Shown: positions 20,893 through 32,861 of the stretch, piece after piece | How the letters are laid out: the number at the start of each line of letters is the position of its first letter | Numbering within the stretch: position 1 is the stretch's first letter | Source of the DNA: Maribacter orientalis | GTDB taxonomy: Bacteria > Bacteroidota > Bacteroidia > Flavobacteriales > Flavobacteriaceae | Length of the DNA stretch: 64,000 nucleotides | NCBI RefSeq assembly: GCF_900109345.1 | Contig: NZ_FNZN01000002.1 | Location: 372,001 to 436,000, forward strand | Direction of reading: 5' to 3' | Program-made: the position numbers and the translations under genes | The notes under the pieces: generated by a model | Database searches by the model: none | What the model saw: the letters and a program-made list of their open reading frames with translations, nothing else | Told to the model about the DNA's origin: nothing

Positions 20893-23055
20893 TTAAAAAT
20901 TAAGCGTTGCTCCAATTAGAAAGTTTGTCCCAGCTTGTGGATAATACCCCTGTACTTCAAAAGTATTTCCAGGTGTTGACCATGAATCTAAATACGTATA
21001 TCCGTTAGAAACATATTTTTCGTTTAACATATTATTCACCAACCCAGAAATTACGATAGACTTCAAAATTTTGTCCATTTTAATCTCATAAGTGACATTA
21101 AAATCTGTTGTAAAATAAGAATCTAACTTCGATGCTTCGGTATCTGTATTACTAAGATATTGCTCACCTACATATTTTGAGAAAAGAGATAAATTCAAAG
21201 CTTCATATGGTGTATAGTTCAGAATATTACCCGCAACTAAAGATGGTGAAAATGCAATGGTTGTATTCCCCAAATCTTGCAACACATCATCTCTAACAAT
21301 AAAAAAGTCAACATTTTTATTAGTGCTTAAAGCAACGTTAGGTCGAATACTAAACTTGTCACTAAATCGAATGTTTGCGTCAATTTCAAGTCCTAATCTA
21401 TAACTATCTCCTATATTTTCTCTTAATGGTGCACCTACATCATTTAGTTCTCCTGTAAGAACCAATTGATCCTTATAGCTCATATAATACATGTTAGTAT
21501 TAAACTGAACATCGGTCGATACATACCGCCACCCTAATTCAAAATCGTTCAACTTTTCTGGTTTCGGATTTCCGCTTTCATAATCATTTCTATTCGGCTC
21601 TCTGTTCGCTACCGCGTAAGACAAATAAAAATTGTTGTTCGCATTCAAGTCAAACGTAACCCCAGCTTTCGGATTAAAAAAATTGAAGGTATCATCTACA
21701 ATACCTGTATCTTCACCATTCGCTTTATAACCGACAGTTCTATATTGTAAATCTCCATATACCGACCACTGATCATTCAAATGATAATTTGCTTTAGTAT
21801 ATACATTAAAGTCTGTTTTAGATGAACTGTCATCGTAATAACGGTCTTGATAACTACTGTTACTTGCATATCTTGCCCAAATTACTTCACCAAAATGGTC
21901 GCCTTCATACTTGTTAAAACCACCTCCCATAATTAAATCTAACTTTTCTTTCCTGTAATTTGCAGAAAAAACAGTTCCATAAAAGTCATTATCTAACCAA
22001 CGCCTTCTTATTACGTCTGTAGTATTCACTTCTTCCCCATCAACAATTATGGGCTCAAAACCATAGGTAGAAAAATCATCCGCTTCTTTATATTGTTCAA
22101 AAAAACCCCTACCTCTGGTATAGTGTAAGGCAATATTGGTGCTCCAGAAATCTGAAATCTTTTCATTCCATAATAACTGGGCATGATCTTGCTTATAATT
22201 ATCTACCTCATTGTCATAAAACTGGGTATTACCATCTATATCTGTATAAATACCTGAAGGATTAAATGTTCTGTCATCAGTCAAAGTTTGAGAATCAACA
22301 CCATACCATGCTTGGTATGTAATTTCATGACCGCCGAATAGTAATGCCTTTATTAAAGTATTGTCATCTTTATATGCTCCTTGTAAAAAGTAAGAATCCA
22401 AATCTGACTCCGCCCTATCAATATAACCGTCCGAATTAATTTTTGATAATCTCCCAGAAAACTCTACTTGATCATTTAATAGGCCAGTACTGAACTTTAA
22501 ATTATTTCTCAGTGTATTAAAACTACCAATCGAAGTTGATATTTGACCATAAGCATCTTCAGAAAAACCATCGGTCAATACATTTAAGCTGGCTCCAAAA
22601 GCACCTGCCCCGTTGGTTGATGTACCGACCCCTCGCTGTAATTGTAAACTTTCAGTTGAAGAGGCAAAATCTGGCATATTAACCCAGAATGTTCCTTGCG
22701 ATTCTGCATCGTTATAGGGTATGCCGTTTATGGTAACATTTACCCGCGAAGCATCACTACCTCTAACTCTTATACCTGTATACCCTATACCTGCACCTGC
22801 ATCTGTGGTCGTTACTACAGATGGTAAAAAATTCATTAAGACAGGAATATCTTGACCCAAGTTTCTTGGTTTAATATCCTCTTTGGTAAGATTAGAAAAT
22901 GTAACCGGAGACTCTTTGGTTACCCTAATTGCCGAGACGAACACTTCGTCTAGTACTACTTTTTGACCCTCTAAAGAATCGGTTTCCTGGTCTTGGGCAC
23001 AGACACCCATACTCAGCGCAAAAAACGCCGCAATTGTGAAAATAGATAGTTTCAT
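20893..23055 (-). CDS. TonB-dependent outer membrane receptor, probably for thiamine
   Basis: The 720-residue receptor has a signal peptide (about 1-20), a plug domain (about 45-155) with the motifs GIRVRGSDASRVNVTINGIP and LQRGVGTSTNGAGAFGASLNV, and a beta-barrel ending in Phe (LIGATLNF). No N-terminal carboxypeptidase-like domain is present, so it is the siderophore/vitamin receptor type and not a SusC. The leader carries a TPP riboswitch (23201-23287). In Bacteroidota, TPP-regulated TonB receptors have been predicted to import thiamine or its precursors, and that is the best assignment here. Confidence 0.9.
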   Translation of the reverse strand: MKLSIFTIAAFFALSMGVCAQDQETDSLEGQKVVLDEVFVSAIRVTKESPVTFSNLTKEDIKPRNLGQDIPVLMNFLPSVVTTTDAGAGIGYTGIRVRGSDASRVNVTINGIPYNDAESQGTFWVNMPDFASSTESLQLQRGVGTSTNGAGAFGASLNVLTDGFSEDAYGQISTSIGSFNTLRNNLKFSTGLLNDQVEFSGRLSKINSDGYIDRAESDLDSYFLQGAYKDDNTLIKALLFGGHEITYQAWYGVDSQTLTDDRTFNPSGIYTDIDGNTQFYDNEVDNYKQDHAQLLWNEKISDFWSTNIALHYTRGRGFFEQYKEADDFSTYGFEPIIVDGEEVNTTDVIRRRWLDNDFYGTVFSANYRKEKLDLIMGGGFNKYEGDHFGEVIWARYASNSSYQDRYYDDSSSKTDFNVYTKANYHLNDQWSVYGDLQYRTVGYKANGEDTGIVDDTFNFFNPKAGVTFDLNANNNFYLSYAVANREPNRNDYESGNPKPEKLNDFELGWRYVSTDVQFNTNMYYMSYKDQLVLTGELNDVGAPLRENIGDSYRLGLEIDANIRFSDKFSIRPNVALSTNKNVDFFIVRDDVLQDLGNTTIAFSPSLVAGNILNYTPYEALNLSLFSKYVGEQYLSNTDTEASKLDSYFTTDFNVTYEIKMDKILKSIVISGLVNNMLNEKYVSNGYTYLDSWSTPGNTFEVQGYYPQAGTNFLIGATLNF

Positions 23056-23172: not shown

Positions 23173-23199
23173 TTCAAAAATTTAAATTAAATTTTTGAA
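23173..23199. other. Near-perfect palindrome between the TPP aptamer and the receptor gene
   Basis: Two 13-base arms (TTCAAAAATTTAA and its complement) are separated by one base, 2 bases downstream of the aptamer in the direction of transcription. It is all weak pairs plus one G/C, but long, and could belong to the expression platform or be a terminator/antiterminator arm. Confidence 0.5.
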
Positions 23200-23200
23200 T

Positions 23201-23287
23201 TGTCCCTTGGCAGCATTACCCGCCCAGGTTCTTTGGGTATAATCTCAGCTTTATTCTAAATATGTTTAGATTTCGGCACCCCTTTGA
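23201..23287 (-). promoter_or_regulatory. TPP (thiamine pyrophosphate) riboswitch aptamer
   Basis: Read on the minus strand, the leader contains AAAGGGGTGCC, a stem TCTAAA/TTTAGA (P3), GCTGAGATTATACCC, GAACCTG and GGTAATGC..CCAAGGGA in the order and spacing of the THI-box consensus. It ends about 145 bases before the TonB receptor start. The P1 stem looks weak as I read it, but the conserved core is intact. High TPP should lower receptor expression. No other thi gene is next to it. Confidence 0.92.
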
Positions 23288-23294
23288 GATGCAG

Positions 23295-27377: not shown

Positions 27378-27695
27378 TTACATATCTAACCAATTACCGT
27401 CTTCATCGGCATAAACGGTACCTTGGGTACCATCATCAAGAGAAAGCACTAACTTGTATTGCTTCTCTTCATTTGCGTATGCTTTATCTAAAGTCGCCAT
27501 TGGGAAATTCTTAGATATCGCATCAGTGACAGCTTGTGGAATCTCTGAAACCGAAATTTCTGTAAATTCACCGGCAATTACCACAATATCACTGACTTGG
27601 TTATGACGTACACCATTCTGAGAAAGTAATGCATCTTGCGCACTAACTGCGAAACCTCCTATTGTTAATGCTCCAAATAAAAATAATGTCTTCAT
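27378..27695 (-). CDS. Small secreted PepSY-like protein (paralogue 1 of 3)
   Basis: The 105-residue protein has a signal peptide (about 1-19, cut before QDA) and one PepSY-like unit: PQAVTDAISKNFPMATLDKAYANEE, then YKLVLSLDDGTQGTVYADEDGNW. Two close paralogues lie at 28293 and 28752. Such domains are thought to bind or inhibit proteins in the envelope, but no substrate is known here. It is 180 bases upstream of the sigma-54 activator gene on the same strand, and a sigma-54-like promoter stands 46 bases before its start (27741-27756). Confidence 0.82.
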   Translation of the reverse strand: MKTLFLFGALTIGGFAVSAQDALLSQNGVRHNQVSDIVVIAGEFTEISVSEIPQAVTDAISKNFPMATLDKAYANEEKQYKLVLSLDDGTQGTVYADEDGNWLDM

Positions 27696-28292: not shown

Positions 28293-28598
28293 TTATTTTT
28301 TATTGATCCAATTACCATGTTGGTCAATGTACACAGTTCTTCTAGTCCCACTTTTTAGAACCATAACCAATTTAAATTCTCCTTTATCATTCTTATATGC
28401 AGCTCCAAGTTTAGATGTCGGATATTGTTTTAATATCTCCTCTATAACCGGAGGCGTTAATTGATTGGATTTTATTTTTACAAATTCATCAACCGAATTC
28501 ATTACTACTTCTGATACTACTGTATTTGAAACATTCATAGCCGATGCGTTAAGCGTCATCCCCAAAGCTAATAAAACAAGTATTGCGTAATTTTTCAT
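28293..28598 (-). CDS. Small secreted PepSY-like protein (paralogue 2 of 3)
   Basis: Starting at the ATG at 28598 the protein is 101 residues: a signal peptide (MKNYAILVLLALGMTLNASA) and a PepSY-like unit (PPVIEEILKQYPTSKLGAAYKN, YIDQHGNWINKK). An in-frame ATG at 28640 would add 14 basic residues before the signal peptide and is less likely. It aligns along its length with the genes at 27378 and 28752. A 15-bp hairpin lies in its upstream region (28650-28682). Its end has Arg/Lys where the other paralogues are acidic. Confidence 0.8.
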   Translation of the reverse strand: MKNYAILVLLALGMTLNASAMNVSNTVVSEVVMNSVDEFVKIKSNQLTPPVIEEILKQYPTSKLGAAYKNDKGEFKLVMVLKSGTRRTVYIDQHGNWINKK

Positions 28599-28649
28599 TC
28601 TAACTATTTTAGTCGTTATTACATCTTTAATCTTAATCATTTACGGAGT

Positions 28650-28751: not shown

Positions 28752-29054
28752 TTACATTTCTATCCAGTTTCCATTGGCATCAGCATAAAGTTCTGTCGAA
28801 GTACCATCTTCCATTGAAACCTCTAACTTATACTTGTTTTCATCATCAACGTATGCTTTATTTAATATCGCCCCAGCATAATCCGCTTCTAATGCTTCTA
28901 TAATTGGTGTAGGTACATCCGAAGTAGCTACTTCAGTATAATCTTGTAAAAATATATCTTCCATAATACCATCATGAAATATAATTGGGGTAGCAGCAGT
29001 TCCCATTGTTAAACTACCTAACGCTAAAGCTGTTGCAAAAACTAATTTTTTCAT
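28752..29054 (-). CDS. Small secreted PepSY-like protein (paralogue 3 of 3)
   Basis: Starting at the ATG at 29054 the protein is 100 residues: a signal peptide (MKKLVFATALALGSLTMGTA) and one PepSY-like unit with PTPIIEALEADYAGAILNKAYVDDE and YADANGNWIEM. An ATG at 29084 would place ten extra residues in front of the signal peptide and is less likely. The repeated (K)AY...YKL....DG....YAD..GNW pattern unites all three paralogues. Each has its own terminator, so they are transcribed separately. A TTGGCAT motif at 29104-29110 recalls a -24 element but lacks a -12 match. Confidence 0.8.
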   Translation of the reverse strand: MKKLVFATALALGSLTMGTAATPIIFHDGIMEDIFLQDYTEVATSDVPTPIIEALEADYAGAILNKAYVDDENKYKLEVSMEDGTSTELYADANGNWIEM

Positions 29055-29203
29055 CTTTATAATTTTTAAATTAAACAATCTCATAAACTGTATTAGAAAA
29101 ATTATGCCAAGACATCTTACGACTCAAAAATTACATTAAAACACTGTAATTCAGCAATCTGAAACAATATTCGCCACCAAAAGAATTGGGTAAAACTGTG
29201 CGC

Positions 29204-29259: not shown

Positions 29260-30798
29260 TTATGCCTGATGCGATTCTTTTAAAAGATCAACCACACTTT
29301 TTACCGGATTAAAAGTTACCAAAGGCACCTCTACAAAGATTGTATTCCAAAATGCCATAGCTCCGTTCCACAGACCTGGTAGTTCTAGTGCCTTTAATTC
29401 TTTACCATCTTTTGTTTTACTGGTGATAAAACCTTGCTTATCATCTACAAATTTTAATAGGTCAAATTTTTCACCTTTATAATTACGAACACCACATACC
29501 AAATCAACTGGATTAAAATGAGTTGAATTCTTCATAATATTTGCCTGTTGCTCATTTTCCATATCTATTTGAGCAGATTCTATTATCTGTAAAGAAACCT
29601 CACCTTTTGCATTTGTAATCCAAAATGGCCCACCTCCTGGCTCACCTTCATTCTTAACCATTCCACAAATACGAATTGGTCTATTAATTTTACTTTTTAA
29701 TATGTTCAGCTTATCCGATTTTGATTTGGAATCAAAATCATTAGAAAATCTCACGTTAAGACGCTCCATTAAAAAGGTCTTAATTTCTGTAATTTTATTG
29801 TCAGAAACCTCATCTTTGTCCAATTCAGCGGCATATGAAAATGCTTTTTCCTGTACTTTGAGAAGAACGCCAGCCAATACTTTTTTACTATCTGCAACTG
29901 CCTTAGCATCTTCCATTACAGCTACATTATCAATATTTTTTATAAAAATGACATCAGCATCTTGGTCATTCAAATTTTGAATTAATGCACCGTGTCCACC
30001 TGGTCTAAATAATACAGTCCCATCTTCATTTCTAAATGGGTTGTTATTCATATCAACTGCCAATGTATCGGTTGATGATTTTTGAAATGAGTAATCTACC
30101 TCATATTTTATACCTGTAACTTCTGAAACTCTAGGTCCTGATTCTGCAAATTCTTTTTTGAACATTTCTTCGTGCTGCTCTGAAACAGTAAAATGAAGTT
30201 TTGCTTTTCCTTTCGAACCCGCATATAATGCGCCTTCTTTTAAATGCTCTTCGAAAGGCGTTGCCGCTACATCTCCATAATTGTGAAATGGCAGTAAGCC
30301 CTTTGGATAAAAACCATAATTAAGTGCATTATCATTCAATAATTCTGAAACAAAATGAAAGACTTTTTCACCTTGCGAAGCAAAGTTTTTAGGTAACCTA
30401 GCCATTACTTTTTTATAAAACGGCAAACGCTCTAAGCCTTCTGAAAAAATTCTAATGTCTTTATCATTGGTTCTTTTCAAATAAGCATCAAGTGTTTCCT
30501 TCTTTGGATTATAAACATCTAAAAAATTAAAAAGGGCCTTGAACATACGGGAAGCGGCACCAGAGGCAGGTACAAATTTTAAAATATCCAAATCTTTTGA
30601 TTTAGAATCGTAAAAAGTTATAAGCTCTTTTTCTTCCGAACTAGTAAATTTGAGAATTCCATTACCTATTACGGCAGCATTCTTAAGTTGCACAAATGGA
30701 ATACCTTCTTTAAAAGTATTGATATGACTCTGCATACTTTCTTTAGAAATTCCTTTTTCCTTTAATTGTTTTTCGTCCCTTTCTGTAAGTTCTATCAT
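29260..30798 (-). CDS. DUF4301 family protein
   Basis: The 512-residue soluble protein fits the Bacteroidota family DUF4301 in length and in motifs: FVPASGAASRMFKALF near residue 80, a Gly/Pro-rich PGGHGALIQNLNDQDADVIFIKNIDNV in the middle, and RICGMVKNEGEPGGGPFW. The PASGAASRMFK and GGHGALI motifs recall nucleotide-sugar pyrophosphorylases (an N-terminal nucleotide-binding loop), so it may be a nucleotidyltransferase-like enzyme; this is inference. Its start overlaps the end of the NadR-like kinase by 4 bases. Confidence 0.85.
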   Translation of the reverse strand: MIELTERDEKQLKEKGISKESMQSHINTFKEGIPFVQLKNAAVIGNGILKFTSSEEKELITFYDSKSKDLDILKFVPASGAASRMFKALFNFLDVYNPKKETLDAYLKRTNDKDIRIFSEGLERLPFYKKVMARLPKNFASQGEKVFHFVSELLNDNALNYGFYPKGLLPFHNYGDVAATPFEEHLKEGALYAGSKGKAKLHFTVSEQHEEMFKKEFAESGPRVSEVTGIKYEVDYSFQKSSTDTLAVDMNNNPFRNEDGTVLFRPGGHGALIQNLNDQDADVIFIKNIDNVAVMEDAKAVADSKKVLAGVLLKVQEKAFSYAAELDKDEVSDNKITEIKTFLMERLNVRFSNDFDSKSKSDKLNILKSKINRPIRICGMVKNEGEPGGGPFWITNAKGEVSLQIIESAQIDMENEQQANIMKNSTHFNPVDLVCGVRNYKGEKFDLLKFVDDKQGFITSKTKDGKELKALELPGLWNGAMAFWNTIFVEVPLVTFNPVKSVVDLLKESHQA

Positions 30799-31358
30799 TT
30801 ATCTAATAACTGATCTATATGGTTAATGGCTTTATCTAAACGTTGCTTTTTGTTCCCCTTCAAGATAATAAAATTTTTGCCGTATTTTTCTAGGGTACGC
30901 TTAAAATAGTTGAACATTTCTTCCCTTTCATTTGGCTTATCTCTTAAATCATCCTCTTCCCAAGGTATATCTATATAGGTCAAGAGGTAAAGATCATAAG
31001 AATTCTGCAGGGCATATTTTTCTAAAATAGGGTCGCAATCACCAATATAGTAAGCTTCGGAATATACTTTAGTTTCTAATAAATCAGTATCGCAAACAAG
31101 AATTTTTGTTGCTTTTTTGGTAAGCTTATTCTCGAGTCGCATTTGACCCTCAGCTATAGGCAATAAATCATGTGGCTCACAGGTTTTTCGTTCATTATTC
31201 CATTTTTCTTGCAAATAGTCTCTAGCATATTCTGGTACCCAAACAGTATTATAATGTCGTGCTAGTTGTTCTGATAAGGTAGTTTTACCGGTAGATTCTG
31301 GCCCAAAAAGAACCACTTTTACGATATCTGAAGGTTCCTGCTTATATTTTTCTTCCAT
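30795..31358 (-). CDS. NadR-like nucleoside kinase (AAA_28 type)
   Basis: The 187-residue P-loop protein has Walker A GPESTGKTTLSEQLA at about residue 18, EYARDYL, the VCDTDLL Walker B-like motif and DIPWEEDDLRDKPNERE. These are the marks of the ribosylnicotinamide kinase domain of NadR. It lacks the NMN adenylyltransferase domain of full NadR. Its start overlaps the PnuC gene by 40 bases, so the transporter probably hands its substrate to this kinase, trapping it by phosphorylation. The neighbouring thiamine-binding gene raises the option that the substrate is thiamine. Confidence 0.82.
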   Translation of the reverse strand: MEEKYKQEPSDIVKVVLFGPESTGKTTLSEQLARHYNTVWVPEYARDYLQEKWNNERKTCEPHDLLPIAEGQMRLENKLTKKATKILVCDTDLLETKVYSEAYYIGDCDPILEKYALQNSYDLYLLTYIDIPWEEDDLRDKPNEREEMFNYFKRTLEKYGKNFIILKGNKKQRLDKAINHIDQLLDK

Positions 31359-31951
31359 GCATTATAACCATATATGGCCAATATTGTAAAAATTAAATAT
31401 TGAAAACTCGTAAATGTAAATCCTTTATAAAAATAAAGTGGCACCGAAATAATATCGCCAAGTATCCAATATATCCAATTTTCAACTTTCCGTTTAGCCA
31501 TTAACCACATACCCACAAAAAATATAGCAGTTGTTATGGTATCAACATAAGCCGTCCAGCTGTTCCATTTATCAAAAACTTGATATACAATAAATACAAA
31601 AATGACAGTTCCAATAAAAATAAATATCGATGTTCTATTTTCCTTTTTAGTAACTGTGGTAATGGGGGTGAAATGTTCAGCGTCTACTTTTCTTGTCCAT
31701 ATATACCAACCATATATACTCATAATAAAATAATAAACATTAATTAGCATATCGCCAATTAAACCCCACTTTAAAAGTAAGTAAACGAAAATTGAAGTAC
31801 TTATCAATCCTGTTGGGTACACCCAAATATTATTTTGCTTGGAAAACCAAACAGATAAAAGTCCGAAAATCACTGCAACGATTTCAAGAACAATATCTAA
31901 GGTATCATACTCATTATATTGTCCAAAGAAATAATCAAAAATGGGGCTCAT
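31319..31951 (-). CDS. PnuC family vitamin transporter (nicotinamide riboside or thiamine)
   Basis: The 210-residue membrane protein has about seven hydrophobic segments and the PnuC hallmarks WVYPTGLISTSIFVYLLLKWGLIGDMLINVYY with YGWYIWTRK, then WIYWILGDIISVPLYFYKG. PnuC proteins passively carry nicotinamide riboside; the PnuT branch carries thiamine. The sequence alone does not tell me which. Downstream overlap with a NadR-like kinase favours nicotinamide riboside; the 17-base upstream overlap with a thiamine-binding protein gene favours thiamine. Confidence 0.88.
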   Translation of the reverse strand: MSPIFDYFFGQYNEYDTLDIVLEIVAVIFGLLSVWFSKQNNIWVYPTGLISTSIFVYLLLKWGLIGDMLINVYYFIMSIYGWYIWTRKVDAEHFTPITTVTKKENRTSIFIFIGTVIFVFIVYQVFDKWNSWTAYVDTITTAIFFVGMWLMAKRKVENWIYWILGDIISVPLYFYKGFTFTSFQYLIFTILAIYGYNAWKKNISRNLQIS

Positions 31952-32195
31952 AGGCGCTTCTATCAGATTTAACTATTTTCATAAACAACAACCCTCTATC
32001 CATTAATTCGAACGCTGTCTTGATTTCAGTAGTCAAGACTTTCATAACCTTATCGTAAGAACCAAAAACTTGAGTACTTAGCGGATTCTCAAGAATGGTT
32101 AACCCTGATTCGCGTAATTTTTTAATAAAATCTATAATGTGTTGCTCGAAATCATCTTGCAAAGGTGAAAAGGTTAATTCTACTGATATTTCCAT
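31935..32195 (-). CDS. Thiamine-binding protein family (MTH1187/YkoF-like)
   Basis: The 86-residue protein is a single ferredoxin-like domain: SVELTFSPLQDDFEQHIIDFIKKLRESG, LTILENPLSTQVFG, then VMKVLTTEIKTAFEL. This matches the small DUF77 proteins now called thiamine-binding. Members can bind thiamine or related molecules in multimers. Its end overlaps the PnuC gene by 17 bases, so the two are translated together, which is an important clue to the transported vitamin. Confidence 0.78.
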   Translation of the reverse strand: MEISVELTFSPLQDDFEQHIIDFIKKLRESGLTILENPLSTQVFGSYDKVMKVLTTEIKTAFELMDRGLLFMKIVKSDRSAYEPHF

Positions 32196-32225: not shown

Positions 32226-32861
32226 CTAATTATCTCTTGTTGAATACACACAGGTAAAATCTTCAAATTCTAGAAACCGTACCTTATAATTAGACATATT
32301 TCCATTGAAAATTATTTGCGCTGTTGTATTTTTAGTATCAAACCTGAAATCTTGAACATCTATATGATGTAAAAAGCTCAACCCTCTGTGTCCATAAATT
32401 TTATATAGAGATTCTTTAGCTCCCCACACAATGGTCAACTTTCTAACAATGGCAGCAGTATTTGCCAAGGTTTTATATTCTTCAAAGGGAGTAAATTTAT
32501 GCGCTATTCTAAGAATTTTATCACGTTGCATTTCAATGTCGATACCTACATGCTCAGTGGTACTGATAATTATTCCTGTAAAATTATGTGAGTGAGTTAT
32601 AGAAATAAAATTACCATCGCGTAAATGGGGTTTCCCATTCTCATCATAAACCAAATCAGAATCTACATATCCATACCCAGCCAACAAATGCCTTATACTT
32701 AAGAATGCCTTTCGATGAAGTTCAGACTTCATACCATTGAAACGATTTTGGCAATGCGGCGTCAATTCTATCCTTTCCCACAACTTCTCTTCGGTCTCTT
32801 CAACCTTCCAAATTGCTAAGGAAGTTTCGTCATTTACTGTTATAGTTTTGTAAAGCGGCAT
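32226..32861 (-). CDS. 4'-phosphopantetheinyl transferase superfamily protein
   Basis: The 211-residue Sfp-type enzyme would transfer phosphopantetheine from CoA to a carrier protein. It shows the metal-binding GIDIEMQRDKI motif (about residue 110) and WGAKESLYKIYG (about residue 150), the two signatures of the family. No carrier protein or polyketide/peptide synthase is nearby; in this phylum it may simply serve fatty acid ACP or a pigment pathway elsewhere. It leads the run into the thiamine-binding gene (30-base gap). Confidence 0.9.
   Translation of the reverse strand: MPLYKTITVNDETSLAIWKVEETEEKLWERIELTPHCQNRFNGMKSELHRKAFLSIRHLLAGYGYVDSDLVYDENGKPHLRDGNFISITHSHNFTGIIISTTEHVGIDIEMQRDKILRIAHKFTPFEEYKTLANTAAIVRKLTIVWGAKESLYKIYGHRGLSFLHHIDVQDFRFDTKNTTAQIIFNGNMSNYKVRFLEFEDFTCVYSTRDN

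Follow-up and report, generated by a model that had tools for sequence, protein, structure and literature searches.

A NadR-like kinase linked to TPP-riboswitch-controlled receptors is a predicted thiamine kinase of Maribacter orientalis and related Flavobacteriaceae

An overlapping operon and a riboswitch-controlled receptor

We analysed a 64,000-nucleotide stretch of the Maribacter orientalis genome (contig NZ_FNZN01000002.1, positions 372,001 to 436,000; hereafter the window) that contains a small operon for a thiamine-binding-family protein (ThiBP), a PnuC-family carrier, a NadR-like single-domain kinase (KIN) and a DUF4301 protein, together with a TonB-dependent receptor gene preceded by a thiamine pyrophosphate (TPP) riboswitch. 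All four operon genes are encoded on the minus strand, and neighbours overlap, as a preliminary description of this DNA had reported for the first three: ThiBP (31935..32195; 86 aa; Pfam Thiamine_BP (PF01910), 26.4 bits, cut-off 24.9) and PnuC (31319..31951; 210 aa; Pfam NMN_transporter, 185.6 bits, cut-off 27.3) share 17 bases, PnuC and KIN (30795..31358; 187 aa) share 40, and KIN and the DUF4301 gene (29260..30798; 512 aa; Pfam DUF4301, 730 bits) share 4. The only Pfam family that KIN matches is AAA_28 (149.5 bits), to which the NadR kinase domain belongs, and the closest matches of KIN among the named genomes come from Maribacter species.

The receptor gene (20893..23055, minus strand; 720 aa, with Pfam TonB barrel and plug) encodes a predicted thiamine receptor and carries in its leader a TPP aptamer (23186..23290, minus strand), the only TPP riboswitch found in this 4.16-Mb genome. 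The aptamer falls short of the Rfam RF00059 gathering score of 54.3, at 32 bits (E 0.0038), and scores under that level are common for TPP riboswitches in this genus; a model made from 20 TPP riboswitches of Bacteroidota, the window copy among them, gives it 73.3 bits. The TPP-aptamer motifs GGGGTGC, CTGAGA, ACCC, ACCTG and AGGGA are present and align with those of the 19 relatives. The receptor is 42-62% identical to receptors behind TPP riboswitches in other genomes with KIN, and only ~27% identical to receptors linked to thiamine pyrophosphokinase (TPK). A TPP-controlled receptor a few kilobases from the operon had been noted before, and the riboswitch does precede the receptor gene; lying downstream of the operon, however, it can control only the receptor, and an Rfam search found no riboswitch upstream of ThiBP. 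A tandem pair of TPP riboswitches stands before the receptor gene in loci of a related family (L277 6683-6875; L270 8555-8730, where the second copy is partial).

Conserved linkage and the distribution of thiamine pathway genes

The order ThiBP-PnuC-KIN-DUF4301 recurs, with similar overlaps, in some 80 named loci, almost all of them from Flavobacteriaceae, and is therefore not a product of chance. The usual arrangement among the 80 is SAHH (divergent), a phosphopantetheinyl transferase (PPTase), ThiBP, PnuC, KIN and DUF4301, followed on the same strand, 0.05 to 8.5 kb after KIN, by a TPP riboswitch and receptor gene. This downstream riboswitch was found in 71 of the 80; seven of the nine loci without it are truncated where their record ends, and two (L162 and L213) have a full 10-kb flank. 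The riboswitch is close behind DUF4301 in genera including Algibacter, Tamlana, Winogradskyella and Eudoraea, and in other families of the order or class it follows the end of KIN by 12 bases (L090, L102), 24-25 bases (L098, L097), 33 bases (L103) or 60-67 bases (L280, L267), with the receptor next. Three of these loci (L097, L098 and L103) have a ThiBP-KIN pair with no PnuC between, and a PnuC elsewhere in the genome.

The link between KIN, riboswitch and receptor extends over ten families (including loci L132, L127, L268, L270, L277, L282 and L138). Given that KIN genomes of other families have one or two TPP riboswitches each, and that the arrangements differ, a single inherited gene order or chance explains the link poorly. 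As a control, no TPP riboswitch was found in the available flanks of ten NadR-type kinase loci (L085, L288-L295 and L298). The expectation that genomes could be found with receptor, ThiBP, PnuC and kinase together in one TPP-regulated operon was thus borne out abundantly as to co-location, but not as to regulation: the riboswitch always stands between kinase and receptor, never before the whole operon.

Bacteroidales have a TPP riboswitch and receptor followed by TPK, and in one locus (L306) also by a PnuC homologue, so that KIN occupies the place that TPK has elsewhere. At L300 (1362-6049) the riboswitch, receptor and TPK are followed by a sodium/solute-symporter-like gene instead of PnuC. 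Eight further loci (L303-L305 and L307-L311) have a similar layout with a last gene of ~460-470 aa, the symporter having been identified in L300 only; the gene of the L300 type is a candidate inner-membrane thiamine carrier.

Family searches for the pathway genes were run on a set of 60 genomes and a set of 198 genomes of the phylum. The genome of M. orientalis has no match to ThiC and no TPK catalytic domain (PF04263) and does have ThiL (312 bits, cut-off 184), which leaves a thiamine kinase as the missing step and strengthens the case that KIN supplies it. Half of the 60-genome set (30) has no match to ThiC, ThiE or TPK; KIN is present in 27 of these 30, the other three being two incomplete genomes (64% and 83%) and one of 0.3 Mb. 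Of the 27, 24 have a ThiL match over the cut-off, and in these the substrate of ThiL could arise only by phosphorylation of thiamine, unless thiamine phosphate is imported or a kinase lies outside the search. These genomes also bear on the idea that KIN is itself a pyrophosphokinase, which would take thiamine straight to TPP, replace TPK outright and make ThiL unneeded for salvage. KIN does take the place of TPK in both distribution and neighbourhood, but ThiL would then be useless in the 24 genomes, and the fold family of KIN consists of kinases that form monophosphates; we regard a pyrophosphokinase as very unlikely.

TPK occurs in three of the 60 genomes, all without KIN, and KIN in 51 (Fisher P 0.0025). 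Among the 198 genomes, KIN and TPK are mutually exclusive with the exception of one genus. Once nine hits are set aside as NadR-type on the grounds of a fused domain, their score or the tree, 43 genomes have KIN, and TPK is found in 7 of these 43 versus 89 of the 155 others (P 2e-6, a value that ignores kinship). The seven all come from g22, a genus that is probably Flavobacterium; when g22 is excluded the counts become 0 of 36 and 87 of 153 (P 7e-12, again ignoring kinship). KIN in g22 lies in a frame of 733-800 aa shared with DUF4301, and two further g22 members have TPK without KIN.

The PPTase gene, a conserved neighbour in the named loci, is located in the window at 32226..32861 (minus strand; Pfam ACPS, 46.3 bits) and ends 30 bases upstream of ThiBP; the five genes may share one transcript, and no role in the thiamine pathway is expected for the PPTase. 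Operon and receptor are separated by genes for a histidine kinase and a response regulator and, beside this pair, for three small, similar and apparently secreted proteins of 105-115 aa (27378-27695, 28293-28640 and 28752-29084, minus strand); the one of the three scanned against Pfam gave no match.

The kinase, carrier and accessory proteins compared with NAD salvage homologues

As annotated, these genes would serve the salvage of nicotinamide riboside (NR): PnuC would import NR, the kinase would make nicotinamide mononucleotide for NAD, and the thiamine receptor would be an unrelated neighbour. The best named matches, to the NadR kinase (TIGR01526) and to PnuC (TIGR01528), agree with this, as does the retention in KIN of Walker A and B and of the conserved residues E43, R46, D90, D136, R139 and R173, as in NadR kinases. 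The match to TIGR01526, however, reaches 113.7 bits against a cut-off of 341 and is limited to model positions 164-319 of 325, which are the kinase part only; KIN has no N-terminal adenylyltransferase domain. In the kinase tree KIN arises among the NadR kinases, and the window protein belongs to a KIN-only clade of 62 rows (support 92/85).

Five genomes (G036, G107, G130, G203 and G242) have, besides KIN, a separate locus where a frame of 331-360 aa encodes a NadR-type kinase, which in four of the five has its own PnuC and in G036 was confirmed to have the adenylyltransferase domain. The presence of KIN alongside a full NadR makes it hard to accept KIN as a mere further NR kinase. The association of KIN with TPP riboswitches in ten families, set against none at NadR-type loci, also speaks against NR salvage, which would moreover leave many genomes without an enzyme for thiamine phosphorylation.

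The genome scan for the kinase used a 6-row alignment, a 17-row alignment being too diverse. A second AAA_28 protein, present in most genomes (C8:166824 in M. orientalis), was considered as the true NadR and rejected: in M. orientalis it matches no NadR model and adjoins a RecQ-type helicase, and its sampled relatives form a separate branch in the kinase tree. A scan of viral contigs found no relatives of KIN.

The PnuC of the window is the only one in its genome and scores 111.6 bits with TIGR01528, above the cut-off. The same model labels the PnuC homologue of L306 (3099-3707), which lies beside TPK and a TPP-riboswitch receptor, a 'nicotinamide riboside transporter', and the name is therefore not diagnostic of substrate. 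In the PnuC tree the window carrier falls in a clade of 46 rows (support 100/99), of which 38 are KIN-linked, three are directly behind a TPP riboswitch and five are orphans. The ten rows labelled as NR type, comprising nine NadR-linked PnuC proteins and the one NR transporter with a solved structure (4QTN), all lie outside this clade, in a tree where 4QTN is on a very long branch and not firmly placed, and which holds no assayed PnuT; L306, its only TPK-linked homologue, is weakly placed. The grouping with NR-type PnuC proteins that the preliminary description had named as evidence against a thiamine carrier was thus not observed. The window protein combines membership of the PnuC family with an association with a TPP riboswitch and thiamine genes, as predicted for a PnuT-like carrier, though the riboswitch stands before the receptor gene and not before pnuC.

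Among close relatives, the PnuC at this operon position comes from either of two distinct clades. The PnuC proteins of L152 (9408), L163 (9402) and L094 (5409) are ~46-48% identical to that of the window and the corresponding kinases 81-85% identical, a difference which suggests that PnuC has been replaced in place. Two Maribacter relatives (L094 9057-13823 and L099 13408-18116) have in a row a TPP riboswitch, a receptor, a 2OG-Fe(II)-oxygenase-like protein, a second PnuC and an NMT1/THI5-like protein, possibly for the salvage of oxidised thiamine or a pyrimidine vitamer. In three others (L095 5344-7089, L088 5295-7045 and L093 5401-7148) a second PnuC is directly behind a TPP riboswitch and overlaps a gene for an acyl-CoA-dehydrogenase/flavin-monooxygenase-like protein.

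For ThiBP, a profile search of the PDB matched MJ1052 and YkoF, and its predicted fold matches SP2199 (Z 12.7) and TM0486 (Z 12.5); it is 14-26% identical to the solved relatives at the top of the Foldseek ranking. Score and modelled fold together support its assignment to the thiamine-binding family PF01910, despite the marginal sequence score; it resembles YkoF and MTH1187 of that family in fold and, weakly, in sequence, and differs in being an 86-aa form. YkoF-type proteins are linked to the uptake of both hydroxymethylpyrimidine (HMP) and thiamine, which lends something to the idea that the system handles a precursor or breakdown product of thiamine, such as HMP or thiazole, and not the intact vitamin. 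Some relatives in which a second PnuC lies with THI5-like or oxygenase genes close to a TPP riboswitch count in the same direction, and PnuC homologues in the genus may serve several vitamers. Many KIN genomes, however, are without ThiE and could not assemble thiamine phosphate from precursors, and we consider this reading very unlikely.

The model of the DUF4301 protein (pLDDT 91.9) has UDP-sugar pyrophosphorylases as its structural matches. DUF4301 is fused to KIN in several loci (L111 6164-8263, L152 10001-12100, L217 10001-12100, L296 5769-7889 and L297 6536-8716), and a nucleotidyltransferase-like fold joined to a kinase recalls the two steps of NadR, as NR salvage would have it. The idea that DUF4301 is the obligate second enzyme of a NAD-like pathway was rejected: its distribution is independent of KIN, with many KIN genomes lacking it and TPK genomes having it without KIN. 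Despite being fused to KIN repeatedly, it probably has no more than an incidental place in the pathway. Taking kinase, carrier and DUF4301 together, we find NR salvage an unlikely function for this locus.

A predicted thiamine salvage route and its relation to known systems

The reading we favour, at a probability of roughly 0.78, is that this is a thiamine salvage locus in which PnuC is a PnuT-like carrier, KIN is a thiamine kinase derived from NR kinases, and ThiL completes the synthesis of TPP. The riboswitch-controlled receptor would bring thiamine into the periplasm, and PnuC would let it equilibrate across the inner membrane by facilitated diffusion, the mode that Jaehme and co-workers are said to have reported for PnuT in 2018. 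KIN would then phosphorylate thiamine to thiamine monophosphate (TMP), so trapping the vitamin intracellularly, and ThiL, whose gene lies elsewhere, would make TPP from TMP; plentiful TPP would shut off the receptor through the riboswitch. ThiBP may play an accessory part by binding thiamine or a vitamer. The absence of a riboswitch before kinase and carrier suits an enzyme that the cell constantly requires. The proposal of the preliminary description, that the operon imports thiamine and traps it by means of a NadR-like kinase, is in this way supported as a genomic prediction.

Several observations weigh against this assignment. The ThiBP-PnuC-KIN operon is itself not under the riboswitch. 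KIN keeps every catalytic residue of the NadR kinases, its typical residues P20, D64, Q72 and E76 are only partly diagnostic with respect to NadR, and the two groups are not cleanly separate in the kinase tree, where one group of fused NadR proteins nests beside a few other KIN rows. KIN and TPK coexist in g22, and one genome (G045) has neither, yet has PnuC and a ThiE. In M. orientalis a ThiE-like protein scores 113 bits, below the cut-off of 145, and leaves room for precursor salvage in this species. Finally, the search for ThiK covered KIN alone, for which an NCBIfam scan returned only NadR models, and leaves room for an E. coli-type ThiK elsewhere in the genome.

The system resembles NR salvage by NadR and PnuC in kinase fold, Walker motifs, catalytic residues and the pairing with PnuC as a transport-and-trap unit; it differs in the missing adenylyltransferase domain, in the clade of its PnuC and in its link to a TPP riboswitch, a receptor and ThiBP. 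The predicted chemistry is that of E. coli ThiK and ThiL, in which a kinase converts thiamine to TMP and ThiL converts TMP to TPP. ThiK, however, is of an aminoglycoside-phosphotransferase-like family, and KIN, which matches only AAA_28 in Pfam, is of a different one.

That a thiamine-type PnuC (PnuT) is known from this phylum, as had been pointed out, holds for Bacteroides, where TPP-regulated OMthi, pnuT and tnr3 are established and deletions in Bacteroides thetaiotaomicron support the roles of receptor and carrier (PMC5613172). The Maribacter locus shares with OMthi-pnuT-tnr3 a TPP riboswitch, a TonB receptor, a PnuC-family inner-membrane carrier and a phosphorylating enzyme. In B. thetaiotaomicron that enzyme is TPK (PF04263), which takes thiamine to TPP, and pnuT-tnr3 is riboswitch-regulated, whereas Maribacter would use a NadR-like kinase with ThiL and has the riboswitch before the receptor only. 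A marine study counts Bacteroidetes omr1 and pnuC as vitamin B1 uptake genes (PMC12442306), and a metagenome study describes Flavobacteriales with ThiL and the omr1 receptor and without synthesis genes, the phosphorylating enzyme not being named (PMC12236431). Literature searches for the kinase turned up no account of a NadR-like enzyme that phosphorylates thiamine; as they covered few subscription papers, an earlier prediction elsewhere is possible. Thiamine uptake by PnuC homologues in the phylum is thus already known; what looks new is the kinase.

We think it likely that KIN represents a thiamine kinase family that has gone unrecognised, arose from NR kinases and, together with ThiL, replaces TPK in several related families as well as in most Flavobacteriaceae. 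An external supply of vitamin B1 is a requirement for many marine Flavobacteriia, and KIN would fill the thiamine phosphorylation step that is missing from their vitamin B1 pathway, as well as providing a better marker of B1 dependence than PnuC alone. A widespread annotation would need correction, since many genes of the phylum now assigned to NAD (NR) salvage would belong to vitamin B1 salvage, and an NR kinase would have been repurposed for a second vitamin.

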